A stretch of DNA of 64,000 nucleotides. It comes from Desulfosarcina cetonica JCM 12296 (lineage in GTDB: Bacteria > Desulfobacterota > Desulfobacteria > Desulfobacterales > Desulfosarcinaceae). Every line of letters starts with the position of its first letter. The first letter of the stretch is position 1. This document shows positions 37,406 to 63,727 of the stretch, one piece after another. The notes beneath the pieces are model-generated. The model was not told the origin of the DNA. It searched no databases and saw only the letters and a program-made list of their open reading frames with translations. Made by a program: the position numbers and the translations under genes. The stretch spans positions 1 through 64,000 of the forward strand of contig NZ_BBCC01000008.1 in the NCBI RefSeq assembly GCF_001311845.1, written 5' to 3'.

Positions 37406-37582
37406 CTAATTAGCAACCTTTACGATTGCCCCTTCATCGCAGATGAATACACAGGCACCACATGCGACGCAAATTCCTTGGTCAATTTCATATTTTTGTC
37501 CTTCTTCTTTTATTGCCGTGATTTGACACTCATCGGCACATCTACCGCAAAGGCTACAGTCATCCGTTATCTCGTAAAGCAC
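37406..37582 (-). CDS. 2[4Fe-4S] ferredoxin, 58 aa
   Basis: The frame starts at a GTG with AGGAG 7 bases upstream and encodes two cluster motifs, CSLCGRCADEC and CVACGACVFIC, in the clostridial-type ferredoxin layout. It is the natural low-potential electron carrier for the FAD oxidoreductase whose gene ends about 190 bp upstream. The pair resembles FixC/FixX or geranylgeranyl reductase/ferredoxin arrangements. Confidence 0.85.
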   Translation of the reverse strand: MLYEITDDCSLCGRCADECQITAIKEEGQKYEIDQGICVACGACVFICDEGAIVKVAN

Positions 37583-37770
37583 TGTATGTCTCCTAATAAA
37601 TATTATAGCGTGTTCCGTAATACTTGATGCTAAAATGAGAAGCTACATACCTGCCAAAACTACTATATACTGTGATCCGCGAGAACTTTAAGCGCTATAA
37701 GTAATATCATGATTTCCGGTACATGCTATAGTTACTATAATATTCCAGTAGATCATTAACCGCTAAAGCT

Positions 37771-38886
37771 TTATTTGCCAAATGAAAATCCATAGTTGGC
37801 CAAATTGGGTTGCACTTTTTTACAAATCGCCCATTCCGAATGGACTAATTCATGTTCACTGTAATGCTCCATCGGGGGCCTGCCTGACTTAATGCTCTGC
37901 AATATAGCTTCCCCTGCAGCTTTTCCTGAAACAAGAGCCCCGGTGATGCCGTCAAGCGCCCTGACAAAACCGGCAGACTCGCCAACGAGAAGAACATTCT
38001 CCTTGCCAAGCAAATAATTCTCTCTATACGGCATATCGTTCATAACTATTCCGCGGCTCATTATTTTCTTTCCTATTTTTAATCCATGATTATTTTTTAA
38101 AAAACTAACAAATCTTTTTAGTGCATTTATAGCGGTCTCTTCTTTACTATTGGAGACATTGAGATGAATGTTACCACCTTTATGGATGAGACTTCCAAAA
38201 GATATTGGATCAATAATCCAATACATCCATTCAGGGTCCAGATCAATTTTCCCTTCATAATGCTCTTCATAAAGCGCCACCCAATTTAATGTTTTATCAA
38301 ACTCAGGAAAGAGTGATCTTCTCACTCTGGATATGGGGCCATCCGCTCCGATCAGATACTTTGTTTTGATTCTCATATAGTTACCATCATGTTTAACTCG
38401 CACTGAAATATCACGCCCGTCCTTTTTGTAGTCAATTAACAAACAATTGTCTGCCATCAGAGCTCGGCTTTCCTTACAGAGCCAGAAATCAAAACCAACA
38501 CGATCAATACTTAAACCGAACTCCCGGTTGGGGAGGGTGTCCCCCAAATCAAGACCGGGACAATCAATGACCTGGGCTTGTGGGTCACATGTCGACATAT
38601 ACCGACTCCCCTTTATTTCCTTCGGTTCAGTAAAAAGTTGTTTCGGAATATCGTCATAATTTTCCGAAAGAAATTTCCGGGCGCTTGGCAGGATGATACC
38701 ACCGCACATCTTATCTCTTGGAAGAGAACATTTTTCTATGATTACTACATCTAAACCCGAGCCAATGAGCGTTTTAGCTGCCGATGCACCAGCAGGTCCA
38801 GAACCCACTACAACAACGTCATAACTTTTTTTCATTTCTTTTGTGATTAAAGTATTATTGTCTATCGTTCTATTTTTTTCTTTCAT
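37771..38886 (-). CDS. FAD-dependent oxidoreductase, geranylgeranyl reductase/FixC-like
   Basis: The 371-aa protein has the dinucleotide-binding start YDVVVVGSGPAGASAA, the family motif LPRDKMCGG (PxxxxCGG type) and the second FAD motif NVLLVGESAGFVRALDGITG. Relatives reduce isoprenoid double bonds or pass electrons from flavoproteins to quinone. The ATG at 38886 has AAGGA upstream. It follows lipBA on the same strand after an IS200 remnant, so it may be the end of the long operon or a separate unit. Confidence 0.8.
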   Translation of the reverse strand: MKEKNRTIDNNTLITKEMKKSYDVVVVGSGPAGASAAKTLIGSGLDVVIIEKCSLPRDKMCGGIILPSARKFLSENYDDIPKQLFTEPKEIKGSRYMSTCDPQAQVIDCPGLDLGDTLPNREFGLSIDRVGFDFWLCKESRALMADNCLLIDYKKDGRDISVRVKHDGNYMRIKTKYLIGADGPISRVRRSLFPEFDKTLNWVALYEEHYEGKIDLDPEWMYWIIDPISFGSLIHKGGNIHLNVSNSKEETAINALKRFVSFLKNNHGLKIGKKIMSRGIVMNDMPYRENYLLGKENVLLVGESAGFVRALDGITGALVSGKAAGEAILQSIKSGRPPMEHYSEHELVHSEWAICKKVQPNLANYGFSFGK

Positions 38887-39043: not shown

Positions 39044-40533
39044 ATGATTGAACACCTCCTCCGCTCGGTATGAGCTACGCACCAAAGGACCTGAGGCGAC
39101 TTCCTTAAATCCATATGATTTTCCCATACGGTGCCATTGCGCAAACTCATCCGGAGAAAGATAACGCGACACCGGAAGGTGTTTTTTTGAAGGTGCAAGG
39201 TACTGCCCCATGGTGAGGTACTCACAACCGGTTTTACGAAGGTCTTTCAACGTTGAGGCGATTTCTTCCGGCAGTTCTCCTAAACCGAGCATGATACCTG
39301 ATTTTACAGCTAATCCTTGGTCCGCCGCCCTGGCCAGAAGGCCTAAAGACCTCTTATAATTGGCCTGAGGTCTCACCATCGGATATAATCGCGGGACCGT
39401 TTCTATGTTGTGATTAAACATATCAGGCTTTGCCGCTAAAACGGTATCAACGGCCAACACAATCCCCATGAAGTCGGGGACAAGGATTTCAATGCGGGTA
39501 TGGGGACATCGTCGACGAATGGCACGGATGGTATCGGCAAAATGCTTTGCCCCCCCATCAGGGAGATCGTCCCGTGTTACCGATGTGACCACCGCATAGT
39601 GCAGGCCGAGCGCGGCAACGGCGCTGGCAACACGTTCGGGCTCTAAAGGGTCAACGGGAGGCGGTGTTCCCTTGTCGACCGCGCAGAATCGACAACCCCG
39701 TGTACAGTGGTTGCCCAAAATCATGAATGTGGCGGTCCCTTTGCCGTAGCATTCTCCCATGTTGGGACAATGGGCGCTTTGGCAAACCGTACTGAGATTC
39801 AAGCCGTTAAGAAGCGCCTTCATTTCCCGGCAGCGATCCGCATCCGGACTGGGGACGGTGAGCCAGCGGGGATGCCTTCTTTCATGAACTTCCTCGAAAT
39901 CGAACCGTTTTTTGAAGTGCGCCACAAACCGCGTTTCTATCCGGGAAAGGTCGAGGGTCAAGCCCAACTCTTGCTTCATAGACGTCATTTGCTGGCCAGG
40001 CATACCGCAAGGGATGATACACTTAAACCCGGCAAGATCATTGTTAACGTTCAGGGCGATCCCGTGGTAGGTGACCCATTTTTTCATGGCGACGCCGATA
40101 CTGGCAATTTTTTTATCATTCACCCAAACGCCCGGTGATTCTTGCTTGATGATGGGCGACAAACCATGGTCGCGGAGCAGGTCCGTGACGACACCGAGGA
40201 GGGTGGAAACATACCAGTGCACATCTTTTTTCGTTAGCTTGAGGATGGGGTAGGCGACCAGTTGACCGGGGTTATGAAAGGTCGTTTTACCGCCCCGATC
40301 ACTCAGCTGGCAGGAAATCTTTTGTTGATGAAGCGTTTTTCGGGATACCGTCAGATCGTTTTCAGCGCCTGACCGACCCATCGTGATGACGGACGGGTGT
40401 TCCGTCAGCAGCAGACGATCAGGCGTAATTCCGGCAACGCGTTGCGCGACCATTTCTTTTTGTGTGGCCAAGGCGCGGAATATTCTTTGCGGCCTAAGCG
40501 AATGATCTCAAGCGAGGATAAAGCCTCCCCCAT
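39041..40533 (-). CDS. Fused octanoyltransferase (LipB) and lipoyl synthase (LipA), frameshifted near the start
   Basis: The first half is LipB: EHPSVITMGRSG, DRGGKTTFHNPGQLVAYPI, KIASIGVAMKKWVTYHGIAL (Lys) and CIIPCGMPG (catalytic Cys). The second half is LipA with both Fe-S motifs, CQSAHCPNMGEC and CTRGCRFC, and the terminal RSSY. LipB moves octanoate to the E2 lysine and LipA inserts two sulfurs, so one polypeptide could complete lipoylation of the nearby E2. A one-base shift near 40470 separates the first 20 residues (LEIIRLGRKEYSA) from ATQKEMVAQRVAG. The two enzymes are usually separate proteins. Confidence 0.85.
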
Positions 40534-40636: not shown

Positions 40637-43379
<2,743 letters not shown>

Positions 43380-43402
43380 GGTAACCTCACTTTCATGATG
43401 AC

Positions 43403-44365
43403 CTAGTAACAGACGGATTGAATGGCAGCGACGACTTGTTCCACTTGAGGAATGCAGTACTTTTCCATCTCCGCACCGGCAACGGGCATATTGGCGGAGC
43501 ATACCCTGGCGACGGGCGCATCCAGATAATCAAAGGCTAATTCCATAATTTGTTGCCCGATTTCCGCTGCCACGCCACAACGTTGCGTATCTTCGTCCAC
43601 CACCACGACGCGGTTGGTTTTCTTTATTGATTCGATGATCGTATCCATATCCAAGGGTTCAAGGGAGCGCGGATCGATGACTTCAACACTGATTTTGCCC
43701 TCTAATTGCTTTGCCGCTTCAAGGGCGTGGTGAACCATGTACAGCGTGGCGACAACGGTAACATCCGTTCCCTCGCGTTTGATATCAGCCTGACCCAGCG
43801 GGATGAGATATTCATCTTCGGGTATTTCCTGCTTAAGCCCCATCAGTTTCTTATGAAAAAAGTAACAGACCGGATTGTTGTCGCGGATAGCCGTTTTCAT
43901 CAACCCTTTGGCATCATACGGGGTGCTGGGCAAGACAAGCTTCAGGCCGGGATTGTTGAGAACCATCGCGGACGGGACATGGGAATGTTCGGGACCGGTA
44001 CCAAAACCACCGCCGGCAACACCTAAAAAAACACATGGCGCATTGACCTTGCCGGCATGGGCAAAATTTTGTTGAGCGGCTTTCAACAAAATTTCATCGG
44101 CGGCGCAGTAAATAAAATCGGCAAAATTCAAATCACAAACCGGGCGATAACCGGCGCATGCAGCACCCACCGTTGCACCGGCGATCGCCAGTTCGCTCAA
44201 TGGGGCATCCATGACCCTTTCCGGTCCGAACCGTTGGATAAGTTCCCTCGTCGCCATGAATGGTGCTTCCTGAACGTTCTCACCAATGATGAATACCGTT
44301 TCATCCCGTTCCATTTCCTCGGCAAGTGCTTCCGCGATAGCCTGCCAATAGTTAATTTCTTTCAT
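43403..44365 (-). CDS. acoB: E1 beta subunit, 2-oxoacid/acetoin dehydrogenase type
   Basis: The 320-aa protein matches the transketolase-like beta subunits (EEMERDETVFIIGENV, MDAPLSELAIAGATVGAACA, VEVIDPRSLEPLDMDTI). With the alpha subunit it forms the thiamine-diphosphate site. The gene lies 16 bp after the alpha gene and ends 23 bp before the E2 start. AAGGGGA precedes the ATG. Confidence 0.9.
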   Translation of the reverse strand: MKEINYWQAIAEALAEEMERDETVFIIGENVQEAPFMATRELIQRFGPERVMDAPLSELAIAGATVGAACAGYRPVCDLNFADFIYCAADEILLKAAQQNFAHAGKVNAPCVFLGVAGGGFGTGPEHSHVPSAMVLNNPGLKLVLPSTPYDAKGLMKTAIRDNNPVCYFFHKKLMGLKQEIPEDEYLIPLGQADIKREGTDVTVVATLYMVHHALEAAKQLEGKISVEVIDPRSLEPLDMDTIIESIKKTNRVVVVDEDTQRCGVAAEIGQQIMELAFDYLDAPVARVCSANMPVAGAEMEKYCIPQVEQVVAAIQSVCY

Positions 44366-44381: not shown

Positions 44382-45362
44382 TTAAGGTGCGTAAACGAGT
44401 GTGTTCAGAATAGAAGGATCGGGATATGGGCTTTCAAGCGCGAACTTCTCTGTTTCCTTGGCTTTTTCGTCAGCTTCCAGTTCGATCTCATCAATAAGGT
44501 TTTTTGTCAAAATTTTCTCCTTTACGAGTTTCTTTTGACAAAGAACAAGGGGATCTCTCTTCTTCCATTCGGCGATCTCTTCTTCGGACCTGGGTAGATA
44601 ATGGCAAACATCGGGCCTTCCCTCGGAATGCGGTCGAAAGCGATAGGTCTTGCATTCAAGCATTGATGGTCCATCGCCTTTGCGCGCAAGATCGACCGCT
44701 TCTTCAGCAGCCTCGCGGACGGCAAAGACATCCATGCCGTCGATAACTTTTCCTGGCATATTGTAACTTTTGGCCATATCGGCGATGTTTTTGAGCGCAA
44801 AGCTGTCGCAGCATGGGGTGAACCAAGCCATGAGATTGTTTTCGACCACCCAGACGACGGGAAGTTTCCAGCAGGATGCCAGATTCATGGCTTCATGGGC
44901 CTGGCCGCGCTGGACGCTTCCGTCGCCGACAAAGCACATGCATACCTGGCCAGTTCCGTTTTTTTTAGCGGCCAAGGCAAAGCCGGCCGACAAAACAAAT
45001 GCCGAGCCGATGGTTCCCCCCTGTGCAAATATGCCGTTTTCCTTGTCAACAATATGAACTCCGGTAATTCCGCCGCCCCATCCGGTCGCCTTGCCCAGGT
45101 GCTCGCTGACCGAAGGTTTGGGATCCATGCCTTTTCCGACCACATAGGGGATGCCGTGTCCTCGCAGATGCGGATACAAATAGTCGTCTTTATGCAATAC
45201 CGAGCAAGCCCCGACACCGATGGCTTCGTGTCCCTGAGCGCTGTGATAGAATGTCCGCAATTTACCTTCGGAAGCCATCCGGACATTGAGTTCATCATGT
45301 TTTCGGGTGTGAACAAGCTTCCGATATAATTCTATTTTGTCTGTATTCGTCAAATTTGACAT
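44382..45362 (-). CDS. acoA: E1 alpha subunit, 2-oxoacid/acetoin dehydrogenase type
   Basis: The thiamine-diphosphate motif spans GDGSVQRGQAHEAMNLASCW to the ENN of VWVVENN. The active-site region FYHSAQGHEAIGVGA and the loop KTYRFRPHSEG are family-like. After ENN the sequence LMAWFTPCCDS departs from the usual acetoin/pyruvate E1 text (commonly YGMGT), which may reflect a different substrate. It cleaves a C-C bond next to a carbonyl and passes the acyl group to the E2 lipoyl arm. Confidence 0.9.
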   Translation of the reverse strand: MSNLTNTDKIELYRKLVHTRKHDELNVRMASEGKLRTFYHSAQGHEAIGVGACSVLHKDDYLYPHLRGHGIPYVVGKGMDPKPSVSEHLGKATGWGGGITGVHIVDKENGIFAQGGTIGSAFVLSAGFALAAKKNGTGQVCMCFVGDGSVQRGQAHEAMNLASCWKLPVVWVVENNLMAWFTPCCDSFALKNIADMAKSYNMPGKVIDGMDVFAVREAAEEAVDLARKGDGPSMLECKTYRFRPHSEGRPDVCHYLPRSEEEIAEWKKRDPLVLCQKKLVKEKILTKNLIDEIELEADEKAKETEKFALESPYPDPSILNTLVYAP

Positions 45363-45399: not shown

Positions 45400-46620
45400 T
45401 TAGCGAGGGGCACAGACCATCAGCTCTTCGCATGGCCATTGGGTGATGACTTTGTTGCCGGTTTCAGTAACAATGATTTGTTGTTCGATTCTGGCTCCAT
45501 CCCCGCCTTCACCGCAAAAGGTCTCCAGCGCAAAGTGCATGCCCGGCTCTAGTACGGTGGGATAGTCATTGAAAAGACGGCTGATGATCGGTTTCTCATG
45601 GATACTCACGCCGATGCCGTGTCCCACGCACAGACCCATCGCCGAAAGTTCGTCGCTAAATCCCAACTCTTTTGCCGTCGGCCATGTGTTGGCCACATCG
45701 GTTGTCGTCGCGCCCGGTCGGACAGCCTCAATGGAGGCCTGTAACCAGTCATAGGCTTTCTGGAAGAGATCCTTTTGCCGTTGCGTTGCCTTGGTCGTGG
45801 CAAAGGTGCGATAGTAGCACGTGCCATAACCGAGATAATGGCCCATGATGTCGATGAAAACGAGTTCTCCCGGTCTGATCATGCGGTCGGAATAGTCATG
45901 CGGATGGGGATTGCTTCTTGGACCTGACACACAGTTTACGCCCGTAACCCGATCGCATCCATGGCTCAGGAGCCATCCGTAGATGTCGGCCACAATGTCG
46001 GATTCTCTAATCCCGGGACGGATCCGTTCGGAGACATATTGATAGCAACCATCGGCGATGGATGCGGCGGTCTCGATAATCGCCAGTTCTTCCGGACATT
46101 TGATAATACGGGCATCCCACATTACATCCCAGCCGTTGACGATGTTCAGCCCGGCGCCTTTGAGTCCTTCGAGGATGTACATGTCCATCATATCGATACC
46201 GATGGGCATGTCGGCGACCTTAGCCTCCTGCAAGGCAATCTTTATGTTCGAGGCGGTGGCGTTGACGGCGTTATCGACACAACCGGGGCCGGTGGCGCCA
46301 CGATTCCATGGACTGCTAGGACGCACATGATCTTGCGGTAACCAGGGAGCGAGAATATTCTTGACCTTTACTGCTGATCCCAACTCAAAAAGGTAGGGAT
46401 CCCCCTCGCGGGGTACGATACACCAACGAATATACTTGTCTCGCGCCCACTCTCCAAGTGCCGTACTAGATGCGTATCTGACATTGTCCGGATCAAACAG
46501 CACGACGGCGCCCATATCTTTTTTCGCCAACTGCTCCTGAATCCGAGTGACCTTGTATTTCCTCATTTTGGCAAAGTCTATTCTTTGCTCAACATCGGAT
46601 TGCATTGTCCCGAGCGTCAT
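45400..46620 (-). CDS. DddP/creatinase-like M24-family protein with altered metal site
   Basis: The 406-aa protein aligns with M24 (pita-bread fold) enzymes and in style with DMSP lyase DddP (MRKYKVTRIQEQLAKKDMG, VLFDPDNVRYAS, SGPRSNPHPHDYSDRMIRPG). In ligand order I see Asp in LVFIDIMG, then Cys where the second Asp is expected (GYGTCYYRT instead of GYxxDxxRT), His in VGHGIGVSIHE, Glu in ALETFCGEGG and Glu in RIEQQIIVT. The Asp-to-Cys change should alter or weaken the dinuclear site. A peptidase role is unlikely in this operon; a lyase or hydrolase acting on the pathway substrate is possible. Confidence 0.8.
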   Translation of the reverse strand: MTLGTMQSDVEQRIDFAKMRKYKVTRIQEQLAKKDMGAVVLFDPDNVRYASSTALGEWARDKYIRWCIVPREGDPYLFELGSAVKVKNILAPWLPQDHVRPSSPWNRGATGPGCVDNAVNATASNIKIALQEAKVADMPIGIDMMDMYILEGLKGAGLNIVNGWDVMWDARIIKCPEELAIIETAASIADGCYQYVSERIRPGIRESDIVADIYGWLLSHGCDRVTGVNCVSGPRSNPHPHDYSDRMIRPGELVFIDIMGHYLGYGTCYYRTFATTKATQRQKDLFQKAYDWLQASIEAVRPGATTTDVANTWPTAKELGFSDELSAMGLCVGHGIGVSIHEKPIISRLFNDYPTVLEPGMHFALETFCGEGGDGARIEQQIIVTETGNKVITQWPCEELMVCAPR

Positions 46621-46643: not shown

Positions 46644-47525
46644 TCAGAGTCCTACGTCCATAAAGTCGATGTTGTCTTTGCCGTAGGCATCCTTGCTGTA
46701 GGTCTCCGTTCCGGCTTTCATCATCTGAACACTTTGTTCAATCAGTCTTCTGGGGATGGCGGACATTCTGCCGCCGTCTACTGGTATTTCCACACCGGTA
46801 ATGTATTCCGCGTCGGAAGAGGCCAGAAAAAGAGCGGCTTTGGCGACATCCAGCGGTGTGGCCATGCGGTTCATGGGAACCTGTTTGGCAAAATTTTCCC
46901 ACATTTCAGGGGGATGATGCCGAAACATATCCGTCTTGACAAAGCCGGGGACAATGCAGTTCACTCGAATTTCGGGACTTAGCCAACCCGCGAGAACGCG
47001 GTAGAGCGCAGTTACCGCGTTTTTAGCGGTTACATAATGGGGATCCACGGGTGTCGCCGTGCCCGCGGAACTTGTCGAGGTAAAAATGAGACAAGCGTTA
47101 CCGCTTTTTCTCAAATGGGGAATCGCTAACTTCGAAAGAAAAAAAGGGCCCTTGATGACACTGTTGTAGGTCATGTCCCATACTTCTTCGGTCACATCTT
47201 CAAGGTTGGGACAGACATAATGCATGGCGGCATTATGGTAGAGGATATCGAGCTTGCCGAACTTATCGATACAACCATCCACAAGCTTTGGCAGATCTTC
47301 CATTTTGCCGATATTGGCTTGAATGGCAATGGCACTGCTGCCGAGCTCTTCAATCTTTTGGACGACCTGATCCGCGGCTTTTTTGTTGCCATGGTAGTTG
47401 ATGACGACATTTGCGCCATGTTCGGCGAAAAGAAGTGCCGCTGCCCGTCCCATTCCACGGGACGATCCGGTAATGATCGCCACCTTGTCTCTTAGTTTTT
47501 GATCAACATGCTTTGCCCAAGCCAT
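46644..47525 (-). CDS. Short-chain dehydrogenase/reductase
   Basis: The classical SDR features are NAD(P) motif TGSSRGMG, NAA in LYHNAAMH, catalytic Ser in TSTSSAG, and Tyr/Lys in HYVTAKNAV. The 293-aa length includes an extra C-terminal tail of about 35 residues. It is 24 bp from the M24 gene and about 120 bp after the MO1 gene in the same operon, with AGGAG before the ATG. It likely oxidises or reduces an alcohol/ketone intermediate of the unknown substrate. Confidence 0.9.
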   Translation of the reverse strand: MAWAKHVDQKLRDKVAIITGSSRGMGRAAALLFAEHGANVVINYHGNKKAADQVVQKIEELGSSAIAIQANIGKMEDLPKLVDGCIDKFGKLDILYHNAAMHYVCPNLEDVTEEVWDMTYNSVIKGPFFLSKLAIPHLRKSGNACLIFTSTSSAGTATPVDPHYVTAKNAVTALYRVLAGWLSPEIRVNCIVPGFVKTDMFRHHPPEMWENFAKQVPMNRMATPLDVAKAALFLASSDAEYITGVEIPVDGGRMSAIPRRLIEQSVQMMKAGTETYSKDAYGKDNIDFMDVGL

Positions 47526-50155: not shown

Positions 50156-50289
50156 TGGGACCTCCTGTATTTCCGTTAAAGAAAAACCCTTGCATTTATT
50201 TTTTAAAATGACAGCGACGGGTGGAGAGCGTCGGCGGTTAATGGAAAATTGTACGAATTGGTGCGGATTTTATATTAAACGTTCAAAAA

Positions 50290-50338
50290 GGTGCCACCGA
50301 ATGGTGAATTAATACGATTGCATTCATTTTGTTGTCAA
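50290..50338 (-). promoter_or_regulatory. Promoter P1 of MO1 operon with GGTGCCACC operator
   Basis: On the minus strand, TTGACA (50338-50333), an 18-bp spacer and TATTAA (50314-50309) form a sigma-70-like promoter. Directly downstream, over the expected start of transcription, lies CACCATTCGGTGGCACC (reverse of 50290-50306). The same sequence type occurs at P2 and P3, which suggests control by one repressor. Confidence 0.75.
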
Positions 50339-53355: not shown

Positions 53356-53472
53356 TCGCTTAGATGTGAGAAAACTATCCGGTCAAATCATTTCCTCTGA
53401 CTTGGCCGGATAGAAGACGGAATAGGAGTAAGCAAAACAGCAGTCCTGTCATCGTTTGTGGAGGATGAAAGC

Positions 53473-53694
53473 TTGTTCGTAAGAGTTACAAAGTATCGTT
53501 ATAGACTGCGGGTGGCGACGCGGCTATGCACTAAATGCTTTGAGTGTTTAAAGATATGCAGTACTGGCGCATTAGGTGTGTCTGAGCAAGGGTTCCCTCA
53601 AATTAGAAAGACAGGGCGTTGCACGGGCTGTTGGAAATGCGAAAATATATGTAAAACCCGTGCCATTAAAATTACCTTCGAATCCAGTATTTAA
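53473..53694 (+). CDS. 2[4Fe-4S] ferredoxin-like protein, 73 aa
   Basis: Two cluster motifs, CTKCFECLKIC and CTGCWKCENIC, are seen. I start at the TTG at 53473 because GGAGG lies 9 bases before it; a GTG at 53458 would add five residues. It lies 120 bp after MO2 and could be its electron-transfer partner. Confidence 0.8.
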   Translation: MFVRVTKYRYRLRVATRLCTKCFECLKICSTGALGVSEQGFPQIRKTGRCTGCWKCENICKTRAIKITFESSI

Positions 53695-53869: not shown

Positions 53870-54250
53870 ATGTGCTTCAGACCGACCGTTGCTGTTAAAA
53901 AGACCGTAAAATGTCCTAAATGCGGGGAAGTCAATCCGTTGCCCCTTTCGATTGATTCATCAATGAAGGATATCATGGAAAACGAGAGCGGCAAGGCCAT
54001 CATCGAGAATCACTGCGCGGCTGTTTTGGCCGATCCACGGTTTAAAACGGCTTTGGGCATGACGCTTAAACAGATCAGGCCCATGTCCGGGGGGAAGGTC
54101 ACGCCAGATATGATTCAGGCGGTTGGGAATGAATTGGCAGAACTGCCGAAACCGAAGTGCATCTCTTGTGGCGAGGAGATCTCACTAACCAAAGGCGCCG
54201 CCGGGCCAGCGGGTCCAAAAGGACCATCCGGACCTTCAGGCCCTAAATAA
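53870..54250 (+). CDS. Zinc-ribbon protein with short collagen-like tail, 126 aa
   Basis: Two CxxC pairs (CPKCGEVN near residue 15 and CISCGEEIS near residue 100) could form one zinc ribbon around a helical middle. The C-terminus is GAAGPAGPKGPSGPSGPK, six collagen-type Gly-X-Y triplets that are rare in bacteria. A GGGGG motif precedes the ATG, and promoter P3 lies directly upstream. The function is unknown; the tail may trimerise or mediate binding. Confidence 0.7.
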   Translation: MCFRPTVAVKKTVKCPKCGEVNPLPLSIDSSMKDIMENESGKAIIENHCAAVLADPRFKTALGMTLKQIRPMSGGKVTPDMIQAVGNELAELPKPKCISCGEEISLTKGAAGPAGPKGPSGPSGPK

Positions 54251-54290
54251 AGCTGATTTGATCTGCCAAGATAGAACCGGGAGCGAGTAT

Positions 54291-55148
54291 ATGGAATACG
54301 TATTTCTCGGTACTGGTGCCGGAAACGGTGTGCCGGAATTCTACTGCAACTGCGACGTCTGCCGTGAAGCGCAATCCAGACCCGAATGTCGTCGAACAAG
54401 GTCTGCTATCGCAGTCATCGGAGACGAGAATATACTAATCGATGCTCCTCCCGAACTTTCATCACAGCTGATACGCGAAAAAATTACCCACATTGATTAT
54501 TTATTCATAACCCATTCTCACCATGATCATAGCGCCGGCCTTGGTGACCTTGAAATCTACACTCGCTTTCATCGAAAAGAAAAACTGCCTGTTTTCATGA
54601 GTAGGAATACACTGGTGGAACTCCAAAAGAGTTACCCATCGCTGGATGCGTGGATGGGGGTGACGCTGATTGAACCCGGGGACGTCACGGAACTGCCGGA
54701 TATCACCGTCACGGCCGTCGAAGTGGCCCATTGCAGTGGAGCCCTGGGGTTTATTTTGGGTCGAGAAGGCAATCGCGTTGCTTACTTGCCTGATACGGGT
54801 CCGCTGATCGATCGAACCCAAGAGGCGTTGTTGGGTATTGAAACACTGATAATGGACGCAACATTTTGGGGTGAAAATTGGTATCCGGAAAGCCACCGTT
54901 CTGTTGATGAAACCATCAGAACGGCACAGTCGCTTAATGTGGGCACGCTCTATCTAACACACCTTTCCATGCACTATAGTGTGCCGGTAACCTGCAAGGA
55001 AATCGAGAAATTGATTGAACGGTACGGTGGGCAGGTGAAATTGGCCTATGACGGAACACGGTTTAACTTGGAAAGGGTTGCGCGTGGATACACGCAAACG
55101 CCAACCCTGGCTGTAAAGCGTGCAATGACTGACGCGATTCACATATAA
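54291..55148 (+). CDS. PhnP-like metallo-beta-lactamase-fold hydrolase
   Basis: The HxHxDH motif (THSHHDHSAGLGD) and downstream His/Asp ligands (AYLPDTGP, LTHLSMHY) form the di-metal site. The N-terminal CNCDVC matches the extra structural zinc site of PhnP phosphodiesterases. The start at 54291 has GGGAG upstream. In C-P lyase pathways PhnP hydrolyses cyclic ribose phosphates, but no phn genes are present here, so its substrate in this locus is open. Confidence 0.8.
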   Translation: MEYVFLGTGAGNGVPEFYCNCDVCREAQSRPECRRTRSAIAVIGDENILIDAPPELSSQLIREKITHIDYLFITHSHHDHSAGLGDLEIYTRFHRKEKLPVFMSRNTLVELQKSYPSLDAWMGVTLIEPGDVTELPDITVTAVEVAHCSGALGFILGREGNRVAYLPDTGPLIDRTQEALLGIETLIMDATFWGENWYPESHRSVDETIRTAQSLNVGTLYLTHLSMHYSVPVTCKEIEKLIERYGGQVKLAYDGTRFNLERVARGYTQTPTLAVKRAMTDAIHI

Positions 55149-55165: not shown

Positions 55166-57258
55166 ATGAATCAGATATCTACAAGCGAGATTATCAATCA
55201 GGTTCGGGGAACGAAATCCGTCCCAGGGGTATGCATCATTTGTCCCTGGCATTGTCCCACAGAGGTTTTTGTTCGCGATAACAAGGTGGTTTATGTCCGA
55301 GGAAACGAGAATGCGCCGAATAAGACCACACGTTGCGTCAAAGGTGTCTCCAGCATTCATCTGAGTCGTGACCCGGATCGCTTCTTCATCCCATGAAAAA
55401 AGATAAAAACGGCAATTTTAAGATGATCTCCTGGGATGACGCCTTCTCATTCATTGCTGAAAAGCTACTTGAGATCAAAGAGAAATACGGACCGGAAGCG
55501 GTCGGATATTTATGGCATCTTGACTCCAACGAGATGTTTAGCCAGCAGTTATTCACGCAGCTTTACGGCACACCCAACTGGTCGGGCCACGGCGCGGCCT
55601 GCGATCAAAGCCGGCGGTTAGCCGGCCTGATGACCTACGGCCATCCCCTGCCAACCAAAGACTACGAGAACAGCCGATTTATCATGCTGTGGGGAGAAGA
55701 TCCGCTAGGTCCCAATCAAAGCCTGCACGAAAATCGAGAGCTCGTGGAAGTCCTTAAAAAAGGTGCCAAGCTGGTGGTTGTGGATCCTTATCGGAGTCGA
55801 ACAGCGGAAAAAGCACATGTATGGTTGCCGATCAACCCAGGCACCGATGGCGCCCTCGCGCTGGCCATGACCCACAGAATCATCGAGACCGGCGCATATG
55901 ATGCGGATTTTTGCGAGAACTACATCTACGGCTTCGAGGCCTATGCCGAGCATATCAAGTCGAATGGCTACACACCGCAATGGGCCGAGCCAATCACAGG
56001 TATTGATGCGAAGACCATTATTGACCTGGCGGATGAGTTTGCGCGCACAAAACCGGCGGTGGCGGATGGGCTAAAGGGAATCGTTAACTATACCAACGGA
56101 TTTCAGGCCCTGCGAGCGATATTCAGCTTAAACGCGATCACCGGCAACGTGGACGGACCGGGATGCCTTATCTTGAAAGAGGCCGGTCCCCTGGCTCCGC
56201 CCCTGGTGATTCCCGAGGAAGCGGTGGCGGTGCCGCAGCGGCCGATTATCAGCGCCGAGATGGGCTATCCGCTGGCGCCCGATATCCCCAGCCAACTGTT
56301 TCCCAAGGCCGTCCTGGAAGAAGATCCCTACCCGTTGAAAGCGCTCTTTTTTCACATCGTCAACCCGGCCATGGCTGATCCGAACACGGCGCTTTTCAAG
56401 AAAATGATGGCCGCCCTGGAACTTTCCGTAACCATCGACGTCTACCTGAGCGAAACCGCTCAACTCAGTGATATCGTTCTTCCCGAAGCGTCCATGTTCG
56501 AAAGGGCTGAAGTCAGGGAGAGCCTATGGTCCGGGCCCCAGGTGATCATGTCTCAACCGGCGATTCCCTGCCTGGGGAGTTCAAAGCCGCTATACGATAT
56601 CATGCGGGGACTCGGCGAGAAGATGGGGTACGGCAAATATTTTCAATGGGAAAGCTGGGAGGACTGGGCCAAGGTGGCCACGGCCTATCTGCCGGTCACC
56701 TTTGAAGAGCTTAAAGAGAAAGGGGTCTGGCACGGGGAATTGCGGTACCATAAATATCTGGAAGATGGCTTCATGACATCCACTGGCCGGGTTGAAGTCT
56801 ACTCCGAAACACTTTCTGAATTCGGCTACGACCCCATGCCCGCTTATGATGATGGGAACCGGGTAAAACCGGATGCGGATTATCCGTTTCAGTTGATCAA
56901 CGGCAAGATGCAATATCACTGTGGCACCCATACGCAGAACAATCCCTATTTGATGGCCATCGAAGGTGAGAATTGGGCCGAGCTGAATCCTTTGGATGCC
57001 CAAAAACTTGGAATAGCGGATGGCGATACCATCGAACTGGCGTCTCCCATCGACAAGGTTAAAATCGCGGTGCGGCTTAAAGAAGGCCTCAAGCCCGGAA
57101 TCGTTCGGGTGGTGCACGGGCATGGTTTCGGACGCACCATGGGATCGGTCGCGCGGGGAAAGGGAACGCACGTCAACCCGATTTTTGATTCCGTGGTCAA
57201 CGATATCTCAGGTGGTATCGGATACAATGAATGCAAAGTCAGCATAAGGAAAGCCTAG
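55166..57258 (+). CDS. Molybdopterin (Mo/W) oxidoreductase MO3, catalytic subunit (split by frame change)
   Basis: The first 76 codons hold the [4Fe-4S] domain (CIICPWHC ... RCVKGVSS) and stop at 55394. The remaining 621 codons start at an ATG overlapping that stop (ATGA at 55393-55396) and contain the bis-MGD domains with likely ligand Cys in GAACDQS. In relatives the text continues as RDPDR--YPMKKDKNGNF, so one base is probably missing just before CCCATG. Otherwise the cluster domain would be a separate coupled protein. It is followed by matching beta and membrane subunits, like thiosulfate/polysulfide reductases. Confidence 0.85.
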
Positions 57259-57266
57259 GAGACCAC

Positions 57267-57794
57267 ATGAGCCAGTATGGGTTTTATTTCGATAAGGAAA
57301 AATGCGTTGGCTGTCGGGCCTGTGAGATCGCCTGCCAGATATGGAACGATTCGGTGCAGACCGTCAAATGGCGCAATGTCGCAATGACCTTCGAAGGCAG
57401 TTATCCGGATGTTTCCAATGTGAATGTCTCCATGGCGTGTATGCATTGTGGTGATGCCCCATGTAAAAAAGCCTGCCCCCGGCAAGCCATTACCAAAGAC
57501 GACGAGACCGGACGCGTGACGGTCAATCGGGAATTGTGTGTGGGGTGCATGCTATGCTTGTGGGCCTGCCCCTTTGGTGCGCCGCAGTTGGGGATCCATG
57601 GAAGAATGGAAAAATGCACGTTTTGTGAGGATCGACCCATGGGGATAAAGCGTGCCTGTGAGGAGATCTGTCCGACCCAGGCCATTGTCACCGGAAAAAT
57701 TGAAGATCTTGCAAAATTCTCCAAACAAAACGTCAGCGGCCGGCTTTTGCATGATGAGAGCCCTGGGGTGTTGCTTGGGCATGAGGGAAACTGA
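57267..57794 (+). CDS. Four-cluster ferredoxin subunit (DmsB/PhsB-like)
   Basis: Four Cys groups are present: CVGCRACEIAC, CMHCGDAPCKKAC, CVGCMLCLWAC and CTFCEDRP...CEEIC. Such subunits move electrons between the catalytic MO subunit and a membrane quinone-reactive subunit. AGGAG lies before the ATG at 57267. The stop overlaps the next start (TGATG), so the three subunits are co-translated. Confidence 0.9.
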   Translation: MSQYGFYFDKEKCVGCRACEIACQIWNDSVQTVKWRNVAMTFEGSYPDVSNVNVSMACMHCGDAPCKKACPRQAITKDDETGRVTVNRELCVGCMLCLWACPFGAPQLGIHGRMEKCTFCEDRPMGIKRACEEICPTQAIVTGKIEDLAKFSKQNVSGRLLHDESPGVLLGHEGN

Positions 57795-58612
57795 TGATGG
57801 ATAAGTTTACCTTTTTCTGGTGTCTGATCATCGTCGCAATGACATTCTTTTTTATCGGGGTATATAAGAATTTCGCCGTCAAAATCGGCTTTATCCTATG
57901 GGTCAACAACCGGCGGCACAACGGCGAGGGGATTGGCTGGCGAGAAAATTTGGCGCTGTTGATACCCCTGCCGAATCGTCAGGTTGTTATGGATGAAGCG
58001 CTATTGCAGCGGCGCATCAAGAACCGTTCCGAATTCCTTTGGCTGCGTCACTTGCTGATTTTTTCCGGGTTTGTCGTGATTTTTGCGCTCGATCTGTTTT
58101 TAACCTTTGCCGGCCATTATGCGCATCATTACTTCCATTACGAATACTTTTTAAGCGGCCCGGGAAAAGGCTTGCTCAAGTTCGGAATGGAACTTAGCGG
58201 TGCGGCGCTATTCATTGGCCTGAGCTTGGGCATGATCCATCGCATCGTCTATGCAAAAGCGGAAAAGACCTATGTTGAATTGAAACTGCTGTTGCTGCTC
58301 TGGCTGGTCACCGCAACCGGGTTTCTGGCCGAGGGGATACGGCTGGCCGGACAACCCAATGATCCGCTCATGTTATCGTCGTTTATCATGCGACCGATCG
58401 CCCAATGGCTGGGTACATCCTTTTCCTGGAATTGGCCGGTGCTGGCTGACGGGGTGTGGTGCCTGCATGCGACATTCGCCGCCGCTTTTTTCGCCTATAT
58501 TCCGTTCAGCAAATTTATTCATATCCTTTCCGCACCGCTGGGTCGCAGTATCACCCAGAACGGAGAATATGCTTATCAAAAGCGACAGCGTATCAGTGAG
58601 GGTTTATTATAA
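57794..58612 (+). CDS. Membrane subunit, NarI/nitrate reductase gamma-like cytochrome b
   Basis: The 272-aa protein has about five to six hydrophobic segments with several His residues inside or next to them (LWLRHLLIFSG, GMIHRIVYA, WCLHATFAAAFF), the usual heme b ligands of this family. It would link the MO3 complex to the quinone pool in the cytoplasmic membrane. It overlaps the beta-subunit gene by one base. Confidence 0.8.
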   Translation: MMDKFTFFWCLIIVAMTFFFIGVYKNFAVKIGFILWVNNRRHNGEGIGWRENLALLIPLPNRQVVMDEALLQRRIKNRSEFLWLRHLLIFSGFVVIFALDLFLTFAGHYAHHYFHYEYFLSGPGKGLLKFGMELSGAALFIGLSLGMIHRIVYAKAEKTYVELKLLLLLWLVTATGFLAEGIRLAGQPNDPLMLSSFIMRPIAQWLGTSFSWNWPVLADGVWCLHATFAAAFFAYIPFSKFIHILSAPLGRSITQNGEYAYQKRQRISEGLL

Positions 58613-58898: not shown

Positions 58899-60031
58899 AT
58901 GGAAAAACTGTCGAAAAGCGTTCAACCCTTTCTTGAACAATGCAGCCGATGTGGCGCATGCGTCGAACAATGCCATCACTTACAGGCCTATGCGTATGAA
59001 AGTCCCGCAGATATCGCCGCTGCGCTAACAAGCGGAGATTTGGACGAATCACTGACAAATATCGTTTTAGAATGCTCCCTGTGTGGTCTGTGCCACCAAG
59101 TCTGCCCGGAAGAATTAGATTTCAAGCAACTGGTTCTTGATGCGCGGTGTGCATTTGTAGCCTCCGGAATCACCGATTCCCAGAGATATCGTTTCTTATG
59201 GGTGGATTATGATTGGTGTCTGTTTTCCATTTTTCGGGATACCTATGGGCTTGATGACTGCTACGCGCATTTGATGAAAGCGTCTTGTGATGTGTTGTTT
59301 TTTCCCGGATGCATGCTTTTGATGCAGGGGCACCGGATCGTTGAATCGGTATGCCAGTGGTTAGCCAAAAGCGGTGATTCCGTGGCCATGCTTACCGAAT
59401 GCTGCGGTGCGCCCTTGCTGCAAATGGGGCAACCCGACCGTTTTAAAAGCTATACGGAAACCCTTTGGCGTACCATTAAGGCGAAAGGACCGCGACAGAT
59501 CGTCACGGCCTGTCCAACCTGTCATGCACAACTCGTTGAAGGATGCGATTCTGCGGATCATATTGAAATCATTTCGCTATACCAGCTAATGGCGGAAAGT
59601 GGGCTGAGAGCAAAAGTGTTGGTAGCGGAAGCGCAACGGTGCATGACTCATGCACAGACCGGAACGGACAGATTGGAACGTATGTCCGAATGTTGCTCAA
59701 GGATTACGAGCTGAAAGAAATGGCGCATCATGGTGCCAACACCATCTGCTGCGGTTCGGGAGGCCTCGTTTCCGCAGTTGATCACATGGTATGTGCCTTC
59801 CGTGCGCAGACACGATTGGACGAAGTGGCGGCCACCGGGGCCGATACCTGTGTCACCTATTGCATGGCCTGTGCGCATCGATTGGCTTCACAAACGGATA
59901 CAAACAATGTCGCCCACATCCTGGAATTGGTGATGGATGACAGGGTTGATTATGAAAAATTCGACGAAATGGCCGGTGCGATGTGGGACGGCCCGGTGGG
60001 TGAAAGAAATATCGAGCGCATGCAAGACTAG
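58899..60031 (+). CDS. HdrC/GlpC-like Fe-S protein with two CCG domains (frameshifted)
   Basis: Two [4Fe-4S] motifs (CSRCGACVEQC and CSLCGLCHQVC) are followed by two CCG domains (FFPGCMLL ... ECCGAPL ... CPTCH and HDSCTDR ... ICCGSGG ... CMACAH), the layout of GlpC and fused HdrCB proteins. A one-base shift near 59640 lies between them. Such proteins pass electrons between quinone, disulfide or flavoprotein partners. The gene follows the MO3 membrane module and probably couples it to another redox partner. Confidence 0.85.
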
Positions 60032-60184: not shown

Positions 60185-61566
60185 ATGCGACTTTTTATGA
60201 GTTCATCAGGATTCGGCTATAAATTTGATGCGCATATCAACTCACTTCAAATGAGTGTGCCAAGCGTGGACCTGTTACGCCAAACAAAAAGTGTATGCCC
60301 GTACTGCCTTAAAACTTTGCCGGCGGCCATCTATCAAAAAAACGGTAAGGTTTACATGCACAAGCGTTGTCCGCAACACGGTGAATTCGATATCTACCTG
60401 TGGCCGGATGCAGCGCGCTACATTTCATATGGTCAATTAGACTTTCCCGCCGTGCCGCGCAAGGCCCAAACCCGGATTAACCAAGGATGCCCACAGGATT
60501 GCGGATTATGCCCGGCTCACAAGCGGGGAATTACCTTGCCGGAAATTGAAGTCACGTGGAGATGTAATTTGGCGTGTCCGGTCTGTTTCATGTTCGATGA
60601 TCAAGTGCCGGAGGATCCGACCATACCGGAGATTATCCGCATGTACGAAAGTATTCAAAAGCATGACGGGTATGATTTGCCCATCCAGATTACCGGTGGT
60701 GAACCCACGGTTCGCAGAGATTTGGATGAGATCATTGGGTGGGGAAGACGGCTTGGGTTTTGTGCCGTTGAACTGAACACCAATGGGCTGGTCATCGGAA
60801 AAGACCGTGATTATTTAAAACGACTGAAAGACTCCGGGTTGACGAATATCTATCTTCAATTCGACGGCTTGGATGAGAAAAGCACGATCGCCCTGCGTGG
60901 CAGGAATCTACTGGCTGAAAAGCATCAGCCATTGAAAATTGCAGGCAGGAGGGGATACCGGTCGTGCTCTCGGTGGCTGTCGTTGAAGGGATCAATGATC
61001 ATGAATTGGGCGATCTGATTTCATTTGCCATGCACAACCTGGACGTTGTGTGTGGATTGGCGTTACAGCCCGCATTCGTTTCCGGACGTTTCGATGTAAA
61101 GGATCGCCACCATTTATCCGTGCTGGATGTGGCCCATTTGATATCCCGGCAGACCCGGGGAAAGATCGATGCATCGGATTTTTGGCCGGTCAGCAGCAGT
61201 CATCCGCTTTGTTACGGCTCCACCTTTCTTTCAGGGGCCGGTGATGATTATGAACCGCTCACCCGCCACATCAGTGAAGACGCATATCGCCAAATGTTCG
61301 ACCCGGCCAGTCCCCAAGGTGCCGTGTTTAAGGATATTGCGGCCAAATCGAGGCCCGAGGCGGAACCGCCCGGAGGACTGCCGATTCTGATCATGGAATA
61401 CATGGACGCCTGGACCATGGATTTGGACCGGGCCAGTCAGTGCAATTTGGCGGTGACCCAGTTGGATGGACGTTCAATTCCTTTTTGCATTTATCATTTG
61501 AGTGATTCAAAAGGACGAAGGCTCTACCCCCATGGCGGCAGAACGACAAATGCAGCGCGCTCGTAA
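60185..61566 (+). CDS. Radical SAM protein, Tes (MJ0619)-like (frameshifted)
   Basis: The N-terminal Cys-rich region (SVCPYCLKTLPAAIYQKNGK ... CPQHGEF, GCPQDCGLCPAHK) and the radical SAM CxxxCxxC motif (WRCNLACPVCF) are arranged as in the MJ0619/tetraether lipid synthase-like group. The ITGGEPTVRRDLDEI and NTNGLVIGKD segments also fit. A shift near 60926 separates RNLLAEKHQ from ENCRQEGIPVVLSVAV. The full protein is about 460 residues. These enzymes do radical C-C or C-S chemistry or methylation with extra Fe-S clusters; the substrate is unknown. The start is uncertain since the MITE ends 5 bp upstream. Confidence 0.75.
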
Positions 61567-63727
61567 ATCCAATTGCCATTTGTGCGGCTACTTTTGCGGT
61601 GTGGCGGTGCAGGTGGATCAAAACGAGCGGATAACCCATATCCTTCCGGATCCCGACCGTTATCCATGCGATCCCGCCGTGATGGGGCGTTGTCAGCGGT
61701 TTGTAGCGAATCGGGATCTGATTGACCATCCGGCAAGAATGAACACTCCATTGAAGCGGGTCGGCAAGCGGGGTTCCGGAAAATGGCAGCGGGTTTCATG
61801 GGCACACGCCATGGCGGATATCGCCAAGCGTCTGACCCAGCAGAAAGAGACCTACGGTGCGGAATCCCTTGCCACCTGTATCAGTGCACCCCACACCATC
61901 TACTGGCCCCTGCATCGTTTTCTCAACCTTTGGGGGTCACCAAACAATGTCGGCATCGGCATCGTGTGTTGGAACCCGAGAATCTGGGTGAATAGTCTGA
62001 CCTACGGCTGGCCCATCGAGGATGAACTCAATCCCGCAGAAACCCAGTGTGTGATGATTTGGGGCATGAATCCGGCGGAGTCGGATCGGTCCTTGTTTTG
62101 GAAAACGTTAAAGGATTTTGCCGGTCAAGATCGCAAGATTGTGGTCGTCGATCCCCGCCGCACACGAACGGCAGAACTGGCCGATCATTGGCTGCCAATC
62201 AGACCGGGTACGGACGGCGCCTTGGCCCTGGGAATGCTGCACGTCATTATTCACGAAGGCATTTATGACCATGCGTTTGTAAAAAACTGGTGCCAGGGTT
62301 TCCAACAGCTCAGCGAACGGGTGAAGGCTTACGACCCGGCAAGCGTATCGGCAATCACCGGTATTCCGGTATCCGTCATCGAAACGACTGCAAGATTGTA
62401 TGCGTCATCGAAACCCGCCTCCATTTTCACCGGCCTGGGTATCGACATGAGCGGCTATAATTGTACCCACGCGCTACGCGCCATCGCCTGTTTGCGGGCA
62501 ATTACCGGGAATCTGGATGTCCCGGGCGGATCCTTCATCAATGAAAGACCGGATTTTATACCCGAGGTGGATTTGGAACTGAGCCATATGCTCCCGGCAT
62601 CCCAGCGCGCGAAAAAACTGGGTCAAGGCCGTTTCACGCTTCAACGATACGAAGGATACGAAACCCTCACGCGATTTACCTTGAAGCACGGTAAACGGTT
62701 GCCGGCACGCTATTTGACGTCCGCGCACCCCCATCTTGTCTGGCAGGCAATGCTTACCGGCGATCCTTATCCGATTCGGGGATTGATCTGCATGGCAAGC
62801 AATCCGCTGCTTTGCCAATCGGATTCCCAGCTTGTGCATCAGGCCTTAAAAAGTTTGGATGTATTAGTTGTTCTGGAACAATTTATGACGCCTACCGCCA
62901 TGTTGGCCGATTATATCATGCCGATCGCCGGCAGTTTCGAGCAGCCCTTGATGCAGATGAACGGTGGCGTCGCCAATCTGGCATACGGTGGTGCCGCCGC
63001 CCTTGCGCCGCGCTTCGAGCGTCAAACGGATTTTTATTTTTGGTCTGAACTGGGCAAACGTTGCAGTCAGGAATCCTATTGGCCATGGGAAACCCTTGAA
63101 GACGCCATGCAAGAAATTCTCGCTCCGGCACAAATCACCTGGGATGACTTCTGTGAAACAGGGGGGTATGCGCCTGAAAAGACCTATCAAAAGTACCAAA
63201 AACAGGGATTCGCGACACCCAGTGGCAAGGTGGAACTGCATTCAACAATCATGCAGGATTTCGGGCATGACCCATTACCGATGTATTTCAAGGTGAAAAA
63301 CGGCAACCAGGAATTCCCGTTGACCTTGATGACCGGGGTTAGAAAACACCCGTATTACTCTTCAGAGTTCAGACAGCTGCAACGTTTCCGCAATCGCCAT
63401 CCATGGCCAAAGGCAGAAATATCTCCCGCGACAGCGGCCCGATTGGGATTACGGGAAGGGGATTCTGTCTGGATTGAAACCCAACAGGGACGCATATGGC
63501 AGGCATTGACGATAAGTGACATGCTGGACGATCTTGTGAGCATCGAGTACGGCTGGTGGTATCCTGAAAAGGAGGCCGCCGAACCGATTTTGGGCGGGGT
63601 GTTCGAATCCAATGCGAACGTGTTGACATCGGCGGATACAGCCAAATGCGATCCCGCATTCGGACAATGGAACCTGCGCGCGGTTCCCTGTAAACTCTAT
63701 AAAGCCAAAGAGAAGACCGATGATTGA
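61532..63727 (+). CDS. Molybdopterin (Mo/W) oxidoreductase MO4
   Basis: This intact 731-aa protein has cluster motif CHLCGYFC ... RCQRF, the likely Mo/W ligand Cys in GIVCWNPRI, and bis-MGD domains (KIVVVDPRRTRTAELADHWL, FMTPTAMLADYIMPIAG, GFATPSGKVELHSTIMQ, VSIEYGWWYPEKE). It most resembles the acetylene hydratase/thiosulfate reductase branch, but Gly follows the second cluster Cys, so the acetylene hydratase Asp is missing. The ATG at 61532 overlaps the radical SAM gene by 35 bases. Confidence 0.9.
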   Translation: MAAERQMQRARKSNCHLCGYFCGVAVQVDQNERITHILPDPDRYPCDPAVMGRCQRFVANRDLIDHPARMNTPLKRVGKRGSGKWQRVSWAHAMADIAKRLTQQKETYGAESLATCISAPHTIYWPLHRFLNLWGSPNNVGIGIVCWNPRIWVNSLTYGWPIEDELNPAETQCVMIWGMNPAESDRSLFWKTLKDFAGQDRKIVVVDPRRTRTAELADHWLPIRPGTDGALALGMLHVIIHEGIYDHAFVKNWCQGFQQLSERVKAYDPASVSAITGIPVSVIETTARLYASSKPASIFTGLGIDMSGYNCTHALRAIACLRAITGNLDVPGGSFINERPDFIPEVDLELSHMLPASQRAKKLGQGRFTLQRYEGYETLTRFTLKHGKRLPARYLTSAHPHLVWQAMLTGDPYPIRGLICMASNPLLCQSDSQLVHQALKSLDVLVVLEQFMTPTAMLADYIMPIAGSFEQPLMQMNGGVANLAYGGAAALAPRFERQTDFYFWSELGKRCSQESYWPWETLEDAMQEILAPAQITWDDFCETGGYAPEKTYQKYQKQGFATPSGKVELHSTIMQDFGHDPLPMYFKVKNGNQEFPLTLMTGVRKHPYYSSEFRQLQRFRNRHPWPKAEISPATAARLGLREGDSVWIETQQGRIWQALTISDMLDDLVSIEYGWWYPEKEAAEPILGGVFESNANVLTSADTAKCDPAFGQWNLRAVPCKLYKAKEKTDD

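Follow-up and report, generated by a model that had tools for sequence, protein, structure and literature searches.

The first 64,000 nucleotides of contig NZ_BBCC01000008.1 of Desulfosarcina cetonica JCM 12296, here called the window, hold a block of about 18 genes that combines four molybdenum/tungsten enzymes (MO1 to MO4), a complete lipoyl-dependent cleavage complex and a peptidase-like enzyme of the M24 fold. We read this block as a candidate island for anaerobic catabolism, acquired by horizontal transfer among bacteria with dsrA and degrading a hydroxylated compound by way of an acyl-CoA, and we give that reading a little less than an even chance. The parts are of known kinds; their combination appears to be new. 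The contig runs to 72,878 bases in all and belongs to a 7.09 Mb draft genome of 558 contigs that is 86.8% complete. Three further carriers are used for comparison: G371, whose genome is one contig of 4,536,740 bases and belongs to a different order than the window genome; G395, a groundwater Deltaproteobacteria metagenome-assembled genome; and G396. NCBIfam and Pfam scans of 37.8–64 kb recovered all the gene types named in an initial annotation of the window, namely four DMSO-reductase-family MOs, a short-chain dehydrogenase (SDR), the M24 protein, E1α, E1β, E2, E3, a LipB–LipA fusion (LipBA), a radical SAM protein, a PhnP-like metallo-beta-lactamase-fold (MBL) hydrolase and an MO3–FeS–NarI–CCG set. 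The genes form two runs, proposed there to be divergent operons, that point apart from the gap at 50155–50744. The leftwards run (unit A) and the rightwards run (unit B) are composed as follows.

47665..50155, minus strand: MO1, acetylene-hydratase-like molybdo/tungsto enzyme; frame change near 47911; 62–84% identical in G371, G395 and G396
46647..47525, minus strand: SDR, short-chain dehydrogenase, from the family scans
45403..46620, minus strand: M24-fold enzyme of a Cys-variant subfamily (PHPH...TCYYRTF)
44385..45362, minus strand: E1 alpha, thiamine pyrophosphate (TPP)-dependent
43406..44365, minus strand: E1 beta
42063..43502 (listed open reading frame, ORF), minus strand: E2 with lipoyl, E3-binding and acyltransferase domains; real start probably near 43.38 kb
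40640..42030, minus strand: E3, dihydrolipoyl dehydrogenase; frame change near 41760
39044..40471, minus strand: LipBA, octanoyltransferase–lipoyl synthase fusion
50744..53352, plus strand: MO2, acetylene-hydratase-like; frame change near 51602; in unit A of G371, G395 and G396
53428..53694 (approximate ends, by eye), plus strand: small 2[4Fe-4S] ferredoxin, from its Cys pattern; a similar ORF follows MO2 in G395
53870..54247, plus strand: small Cys-pair protein MCFRP with a Gly-Pro-rich tail; no Pfam match
54258..55145, plus strand: MBL-fold hydrolase, PhnP/RNase Z-like
55166..57255, plus strand: MO3, Phs/Psr-like catalytic subunit; frame change near 55390
57231..57791, plus strand: FeS subunit, DmsB-like
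57794..58609, plus strand: membrane subunit, NarI/QmoC-like
58899..60031, plus strand: CCG-domain Fe-S protein; frame change near 59610
60275..61563, plus strand: radical SAM protein, TrsS/Tes-like; frame change near 60930
61502..63724, plus strand: MO4, acetylene-hydratase-like

In the pathway that we propose, the cytosolic MO1, MO2 and MO4 would add, remove or shift water or a hydroxyl group on a substrate that carries hydroxyls and may be phenolic or alicyclic. The SDR would oxidise a hydroxyl to leave an α-hydroxyketone or a 1,2-diketone, and the M24 enzyme would act directly before or after that step through a non-peptidase hydrolysis or a lyase/elimination reaction. E1 with TPP would cleave the C–C bond adjoining the carbonyl, E2 would hand the acyl group to CoA to give an acyl-CoA, and E3 would produce NADH. 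LipBA would lipoylate E2, and MO3–FeS–NarI together with the CCG protein would deliver electrons to the quinone pool. The initial annotation had suggested that the substrate may be a hydroxylated ring and that the product may be an acyl-CoA; both are inferences, and the acyl-CoA is the better supported of the two because E2 is complete, with its DHRIMDG motif.

The linkage first read from the window alone recurs in other genomes. The same genes lie in the same local order in G371, in G395 and, on two contigs, in G396, which is more than chance. Outside the window, unit A reads MO1-SDR-M24-E1α-E1β-E2-MO2-(Cys-rich genes; a ferredoxin in G395)-E3-LipBA, and unit B reads Cys-pair protein-MBL-MO3-FeS-NarI-CCG-radical SAM-MO4. 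The two units are co-directional over about 25 kb in G395. They converge in G371, with an aldehyde ferredoxin oxidoreductase (AFOR) and cofactor-type genes between them, and they diverge in the window, where MO2 is placed with unit B. In G396, unit A leaves its contig inside MO2 and unit B leaves another contig inside the MBL gene, so that the E3, LipBA and MCFRP of the block are not seen there. That the same genes are found in such varied arrangements argues that the set is held together. Separately, NarI of unit B in G371 (L151, about 6.4–8.2 kb) is split by an oppositely oriented ORF of 502 aa, which is probably an insertion element.

The distribution of the block is sparse. The M24 protein was found at E ≤ 1e-40 in 16 of 297 genomes of the phylum, including the window's own, and only one of the other 15, G077, reached at least 70% identity; G077 and G396 are two labels of the same genome. 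A scan of contigs for M24 loci, here considered as the best 80 of 582 confirmed, gave two at 71–72% identity, one from that same genome (L039) and one from G395 (L040). At E ≤ 1e-100, MO1 appears in three of 395 phylum genomes (the window's own, G077 and G371). It appears in one of 60 relatives of the window genome, which is the window genome itself, with none in 12 congeners or 17 other genomes of the family, and in one of 59 relatives of G371, again only G371; some of the genomes without MO1 are incomplete. Since MO1 was not found in these relatives and is yet 83% identical between the window and G371 across different orders, the block probably moves horizontally. The dsrA gene scores over its curated cut-off in all four carriers, and no gene does so in the comparison genome G198. 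The carriers are few and distantly related, and they have the look of sulfate reducers.

Six of the genes in the window (MO1, E3, MO2, MO3, CCG and TrsS) have one frame change each, all within about 20 kb. This could be the mark of a decaying copy, a dead island in this strain, and IS701, IS1595 and tyrosine recombinase genes do lie elsewhere in the window, at 19–31 kb. We consider decay improbable. The same six genes are single open frames in G371 and G395, and the identity to G371 is similar on either side of each break (for MO1, 83% and then 88%). In a draft of 558 contigs, such even flanking identity makes sequence error the simplest cause.

When the molybdoenzymes are compared with the PDB, acetylene hydratase is the best solved match to MO1 (E 1.4e-79), to MO2 (2.6e-76 for the C-part and 4.9e-31 for the N-part) and to MO4 (6.1e-111), and MO3 is nearest to the thiosulfate/polysulfide reductase 2vpw (5.5e-78). 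MO1, MO2 and MO4 share with acetylene hydratase (2e7z) about 30–35% identity over the aligned columns of a partial chain, the N-terminal [4Fe-4S] Cys set and the Cys ligand of the metal. In an alignment of 13 MOs from the four genomes, with acetylene hydratase positions counted from the printed chain, all 13 have Cys in the metal-ligand column; the broken MO2 and MO3 of the window were left out of it, and the window MO2 was viewed separately. They differ from acetylene hydratase at the Asp beside the second cluster Cys. At that column, there is His in MO1 (where the column is alignment-dependent) and in MO2 of G371 and G395, Ser in the window MO2, Gly in MO4 and Pro in MO3. We take this Asp to be Asp13 of acetylene hydratase and to have a functional role there. 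A further difference is that three paralogues stand together here with an E1-E2-E3 complex. According to PMC7028382, the nearest relative of catechol dehydroxylases is acetylene hydratase, and the present enzymes are compared with them by way of that report. The MO3-FeS-NarI gene order, like the match to 2vpw, is that of the Psr/Phs respiratory complexes, but here it is set in a catabolic block with CCG and radical SAM genes.

The initial annotation had likened the block to the resorcinol/hydroxyhydroquinone pathway of Azoarcus anaerobius, which is said to join MO enzymes with an acetoin-dehydrogenase-like complex. As members of such a scheme, the genes would encode a resorcinol hydroxylase, a hydroxyhydroquinone dehydrogenase and a complex of the acetoin dehydrogenase kind that cleaves hydroxybenzoquinone, and the occurrence of MO and E1-E2-E3 genes in a single cluster agrees with it. 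The likeness does not carry much further, since the MOs here are Cys-ligated and of the acetylene hydratase type, and the block adds M24, MBL and LipBA. Pyrogallol transhydroxylase is only a weak match to MO4 (1e-4) and MO3 (5.5e-16), and it is absent from the PDB matches of MO1 at E ≤ 1e-10 and of the MO2 C-part at E ≤ 1e-5. No DmsB-like small subunit is encoded beside MO1, MO2 or MO4; a small ferredoxin follows MO2, and only MO3 has a DmsB-like partner. An adjacent small Fe-S subunit is presumably a trait of both resorcinol hydroxylase (RhL) and pyrogallol transhydroxylase (PgtL). The ligand of Mo or W is Ser in RhL and PgtL and Cys in acetylene hydratase, according to a survey of the superfamily (PMC10100899), and that Ser is missing in every one of the aligned MOs. 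On the ligand residue and the PDB matches, we rejected resorcinol-type membership for the MOs, and we regard the scheme as a whole as very improbable for this block.

The M24 enzyme belongs to a subfamily with the motifs PHPH and TCYYRTF. We take the metal ligands of M24 metallopeptidases to be D, D, H, E and E. The window protein keeps D257, H334, E366 and E379, and the second Asp is replaced by C268. Cys occupies that position in 79 of 79 contig-scan rows (from among the best 80 loci), in all six plasmid rows and in 15 of 26 rows from the genome search, the other 11 having Asp. The contig-scan set is biased for Cys because one of the two scan patterns contained TCYYR. The His pair lies outside the scan patterns, and in the same set H239 is kept in 78 of 79 rows and H241 in 79 of 79. 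An AlphaFold model of the protein has a predicted local distance difference test score (pLDDT) of 91.8, and its best Foldseek match is DddP (E 1.5e-29), followed by DoeA and prolidases, with creatinase lower. DddP, a dimethylsulfoniopropionate lyase, and DoeA, an ectoine hydrolase, are M24 enzymes that act on small molecules. The present enzyme differs from them in its Cys for one Asp ligand and in its PHPH motif, and identity with DddP was rejected (109.5 of 600 bits for NF043017).

The M24 gene is found beside E1 genes well beyond the four carriers. Among the best 80 of the 582 loci, E1α or E1β lies within 6 kb of M24 in 43, on the same strand in 41 and within 400 bases in 30. When only the 39 loci with 6 kb of sequence on both sides are counted, 23 have E1. 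Such proximity is not expected by chance, given that the window genome has only three E1α places in 7.09 Mb; this comparison has no matched control of other M24 loci. The E1-linked rows come from Pseudomonadota, Actinomycetota, Chloroflexota, Acidobacteriota, Deinococcota and SAR324. A single origin of E1α for all the M24-linked rows is rejected (p 0.00013, with long branches present), so one inherited M24-E1 operon cannot explain every pair. That M24 is paired with E1s of different lineages speaks for a common pathway, one that M24 and the lipoyl complex probably serve together. The best E1β matches to the window outside the carriers are M24-linked as well (G198 53%, Phaeobacter 50%, SAR324 49%); among 59 rows, the six best are all M24-linked loci, two of them being the same gene. 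In a quick E1β tree, those rows fall near the carriers with support 81, on a branch that is not starred, and the Phaeobacter and SAR324 rows lie inside a wider M24-linked group.

Two of these cassettes are instructive. On a Phaeobacter plasmid (L119), the run SDR-M24-E1α-E1β-lipoyl protein-semialdehyde dehydrogenase-E2-lpdA adjoins sugar ABC genes, an arrangement closely matched in strain SC52. In the Dehalococcoidia isolate BS750m-G42 (L079), M24 lies beside a divergent E1α-E1β-E2-E3-LipB-LipA-AFOR run, with MO and FeS genes farther on. We suggest, with somewhat less conviction than we have in the island itself, that the Cys-variant M24 subfamily, which ranges from Pelagibacteraceae and Actinomycetota to Dehalococcoidia, is a catabolic enzyme that is widespread but has gone unrecognised, and that it produces or processes the substrate for dedicated TPP–lipoyl complexes. 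The island in the window would then be the anaerobic, molybdoenzyme-fed form, opening a hydroxylated, possibly aromatic-derived, compound by an undescribed lipoyl-dependent C–C cleavage. Other contexts of M24 exist, for example a Xanthobacteraceae group in a quick M24 tree. G077 has a second SDR-M24 pair without E1 (L032, contig C230, 4600–6738), beside genes for an RNase Z-like MBL protein and GST-like, PreA-like and acetophenone-carboxylase-like proteins. On a Paenarthrobacter plasmid (L124), a Cys-variant M24 accompanies RidA, reductase, SDR and lpdA genes, with a flavin reductase annotated SulR about 2 kb away. The AFOR was considered as a constant partner and rejected, as it occurs only beside the G371 block and in L079 (1482–3242), the two being 50.6% identical, and not in the window or the G395 or G396 contigs.

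The lipoyl complex appears complete and, by identity, set apart from its familiar relatives. The E1α of the window is 67–72% identical to those of the other carriers and at most 42% identical to the E1α sequences outside the carriers with which it was compared. It falls short of the pyruvate dehydrogenase (PDH) E1α cut-offs (257.2 of 393.85 bits for TIGR03182 and 223.2 of 411.35 for TIGR03181), and the acetoin E2 cut-off is likewise unreached. A tree of 62 E1α rows separates the carriers from three rows of acetoin type (L164, L162 and L002) and from two that are annotated pdhA. E2 has lipoyl, E3-binding and acyltransferase domains, with DHRIMDG in the last case assumed, as are the LipA cysteine sets and the RSSY that LipBA retains, to be a catalytic motif. 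The intact E3 of G395 passes the dihydrolipoyl dehydrogenase cut-off (540.7 of 408.8 bits), and the two pieces in the window score 397.7 and 110.7. LipBA exceeds the equivalog cut-offs for both halves (370.3 of 310.25 for lipA, TIGR00510, and 135.3 of 83.55 for lipB, TIGR00214). That the complex has a lipoylation enzyme of its own, as the initial annotation had it, is borne out in that all four carrier genomes encode the fused LipBA in addition to a separate LipA and LipB.

Several points weigh against our reading of the island, and the first concern this complex. E1β scores 316.6 of 321 bits for the PDH E1β subfamily NF006667, a near miss. In the unconstrained E1α tree, a starred branch joins the carriers to L158, a long-branched plasmid E1α annotated acetoin:DCPIP oxidoreductase whose placement is unsure. 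A forced clade of the carriers with L164, L162 and L002 is not rejected by the approximately unbiased (AU) test (p 0.166), and for the two PDH rows the result is borderline (p 0.063). The LipBA of G396 lies inside a separate acetoin-like operon (L168, contig C211), in the run E2-E3-LipBA-E1α-E1β with an E1α 41% identical to that of the window, and the E3/LipBA stretch of the block is off the assembled contig; because the G396 LipBA belongs to this other set, three genomes show a LipBA that is part of the block. The SDR falls below all the listed NCBIfam cut-offs. M24 occurs without E1 in 16 of the 39 loci with full room and in the second copy of G396. No ring reductase or CoA ligase is present among the identified genes of the block. 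Where the neighbours of an aerobic cassette could be identified, they include regulators or transporters of the sugar type, a pointer to polyols and not to rings. Finally, we infer the class of the substrate, and both a ring and an open-chain polyol-like compound are possible, the former favoured by the MOs and the latter by the aerobic cassettes.

The points on E1, E1β and LipBA would suit an ordinary operon for acetoin dehydrogenase or PDH, lying by chance beside unrelated MO genes. This seems to us scarcely likely. MO1 and MO2 bracket the E1-E2 genes within one run in G371, G395 and G396, the window genome already has two further E1 pairs, and the low E1α identities and unreached PDH and acetoin cut-offs are not those of such an operon. 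Acetoin systems do resemble the block in that they cluster E1α-E1β-E2-E3 with genes for lipoyl synthase and a reductase of the SDR type. Among the acetoin rows, L164 of Acinetobacter has the clearest operon, with lipA, acetoin reductase and butanediol dehydrogenase alongside. Here, the E1 is distant, M24 and MO genes are added, and the fused LipBA takes the place of LipA. Of the outcome that was to count against the initial annotation, namely tight grouping of E1/E2 with true pyruvate or acetoin dehydrogenases and no conserved linkage with the MO genes, neither half is found, in that the linkage is kept and by identity E1 does not group tightly with either; the acetoin kinship is the part that the AU test leaves standing. 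E1 thus appears distinct by identity and may still have a deeper kinship, including with the acetoin type.

The points on the substrate bring in a different chemistry. With an aliphatic substrate, such as a sugar acid, polyol or cyclitol, the SDR would form an acyloin, M24 would prepare it, and E1-E2-E3 would split it into acyl-CoA and aldehyde as acetoin dehydrogenase does, leaving the MOs to dehydration or to aldehyde/electron chemistry. The Phaeobacter cassette beside sugar ABC genes, with its near copy in SC52, is what one would expect of this. So are two genes close to M24-E1 loci, a regulator of the LacI type (L067) and a gene resembling 2-hydroxy-3-oxopropionate reductase (L079), and the TRAP transporter of L085, a locus without a nearby E1. 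Cleavage of the acetoin type would set free an aldehyde as well, and the AFOR genes of G371 and L079 and the semialdehyde dehydrogenase of the aerobes agree with that, though these are not in all carriers. Genes that cluster with the semialdehyde dehydrogenase of Phaeobacter occur in 13 of 86 loci, in a clustering with greedy ORF choice that also retains antisense ORFs in GC-rich DNA. Against this, no AFOR match is present in the window or in the fetched G395 and G396 contigs (G396 being incomplete there), none of the genes identified in the anaerobic block is a sugar transporter, and the E1s and SDRs of the other loci are mostly about 25–50% identical to those of the window. We regard an aliphatic substrate as an unlikely but substantial alternative to the hydroxylated, possibly ring-bearing, compound that we favour.

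To our knowledge, lipoyl-dependent E1-E2-E3 complexes have few known substrates. If our reading is right, this conserved, transferable block would be a new anaerobic route by which a hydroxylated compound yields acyl-CoA and electrons, with a lipoyl complex standing between acetylene-hydratase-type MOs and a membrane redox module. The recurrent pairing of M24 with E1 in several phyla would also offer a handle on proteins annotated as Xaa-Pro peptidases in many plasmid records. Among the open-licence papers listed in our searches, we found no description of the gene set or of the M24-E1 cassette, which is weak evidence of absence, and nothing on the gene set was found in PMC13416013, PMC10470551 or PMC12771579.

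Some of the smaller genes and the flanks of the block deserve comment. The MBL hydrolase does not reach the PhnP equivalog TIGR03307 (104.3 of 272.25 bits). TrsS is a closer match to the radical SAM protein than Tes is, and the intact G395 copy of the protein misses both cut-offs (382.7 of 490 and 331.4 of 450 bits, respectively), with the window pieces lower. MCFRP, with its two Cys pairs and Gly-Pro tail, is found in only one of 297 phylum genomes, the window's own, in a draw without G371 and G395 and with G396 contigs that stop before the gene; a partial relative is present in unit A of G371 and G395. Unit B extends beyond the window through GNAT and then DUF2064 genes. The genes adjoining the two units are the following.

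63720..63998, plus strand: GNAT gene, truncated by the window end; the DUF2064 gene is next on the contig
37774..38886, minus strand: FAD-binding geranylgeranyl-reductase-like gene adjoining unit A, outside the conserved block

The FAD reductase-like gene has no match within the fetched stretches of G371 and G395. A TauC/NitT-like ABC permease (36362–37237) also adjoins unit A and is likewise unmatched in the stretches fetched from the other carriers. Fragments of a fifth MO lie in broken frames at 21487–23058 of the window, beside an IS701 transposase, and the first of them shares 79.5% identity with an ORF adjoining unit A of G371.

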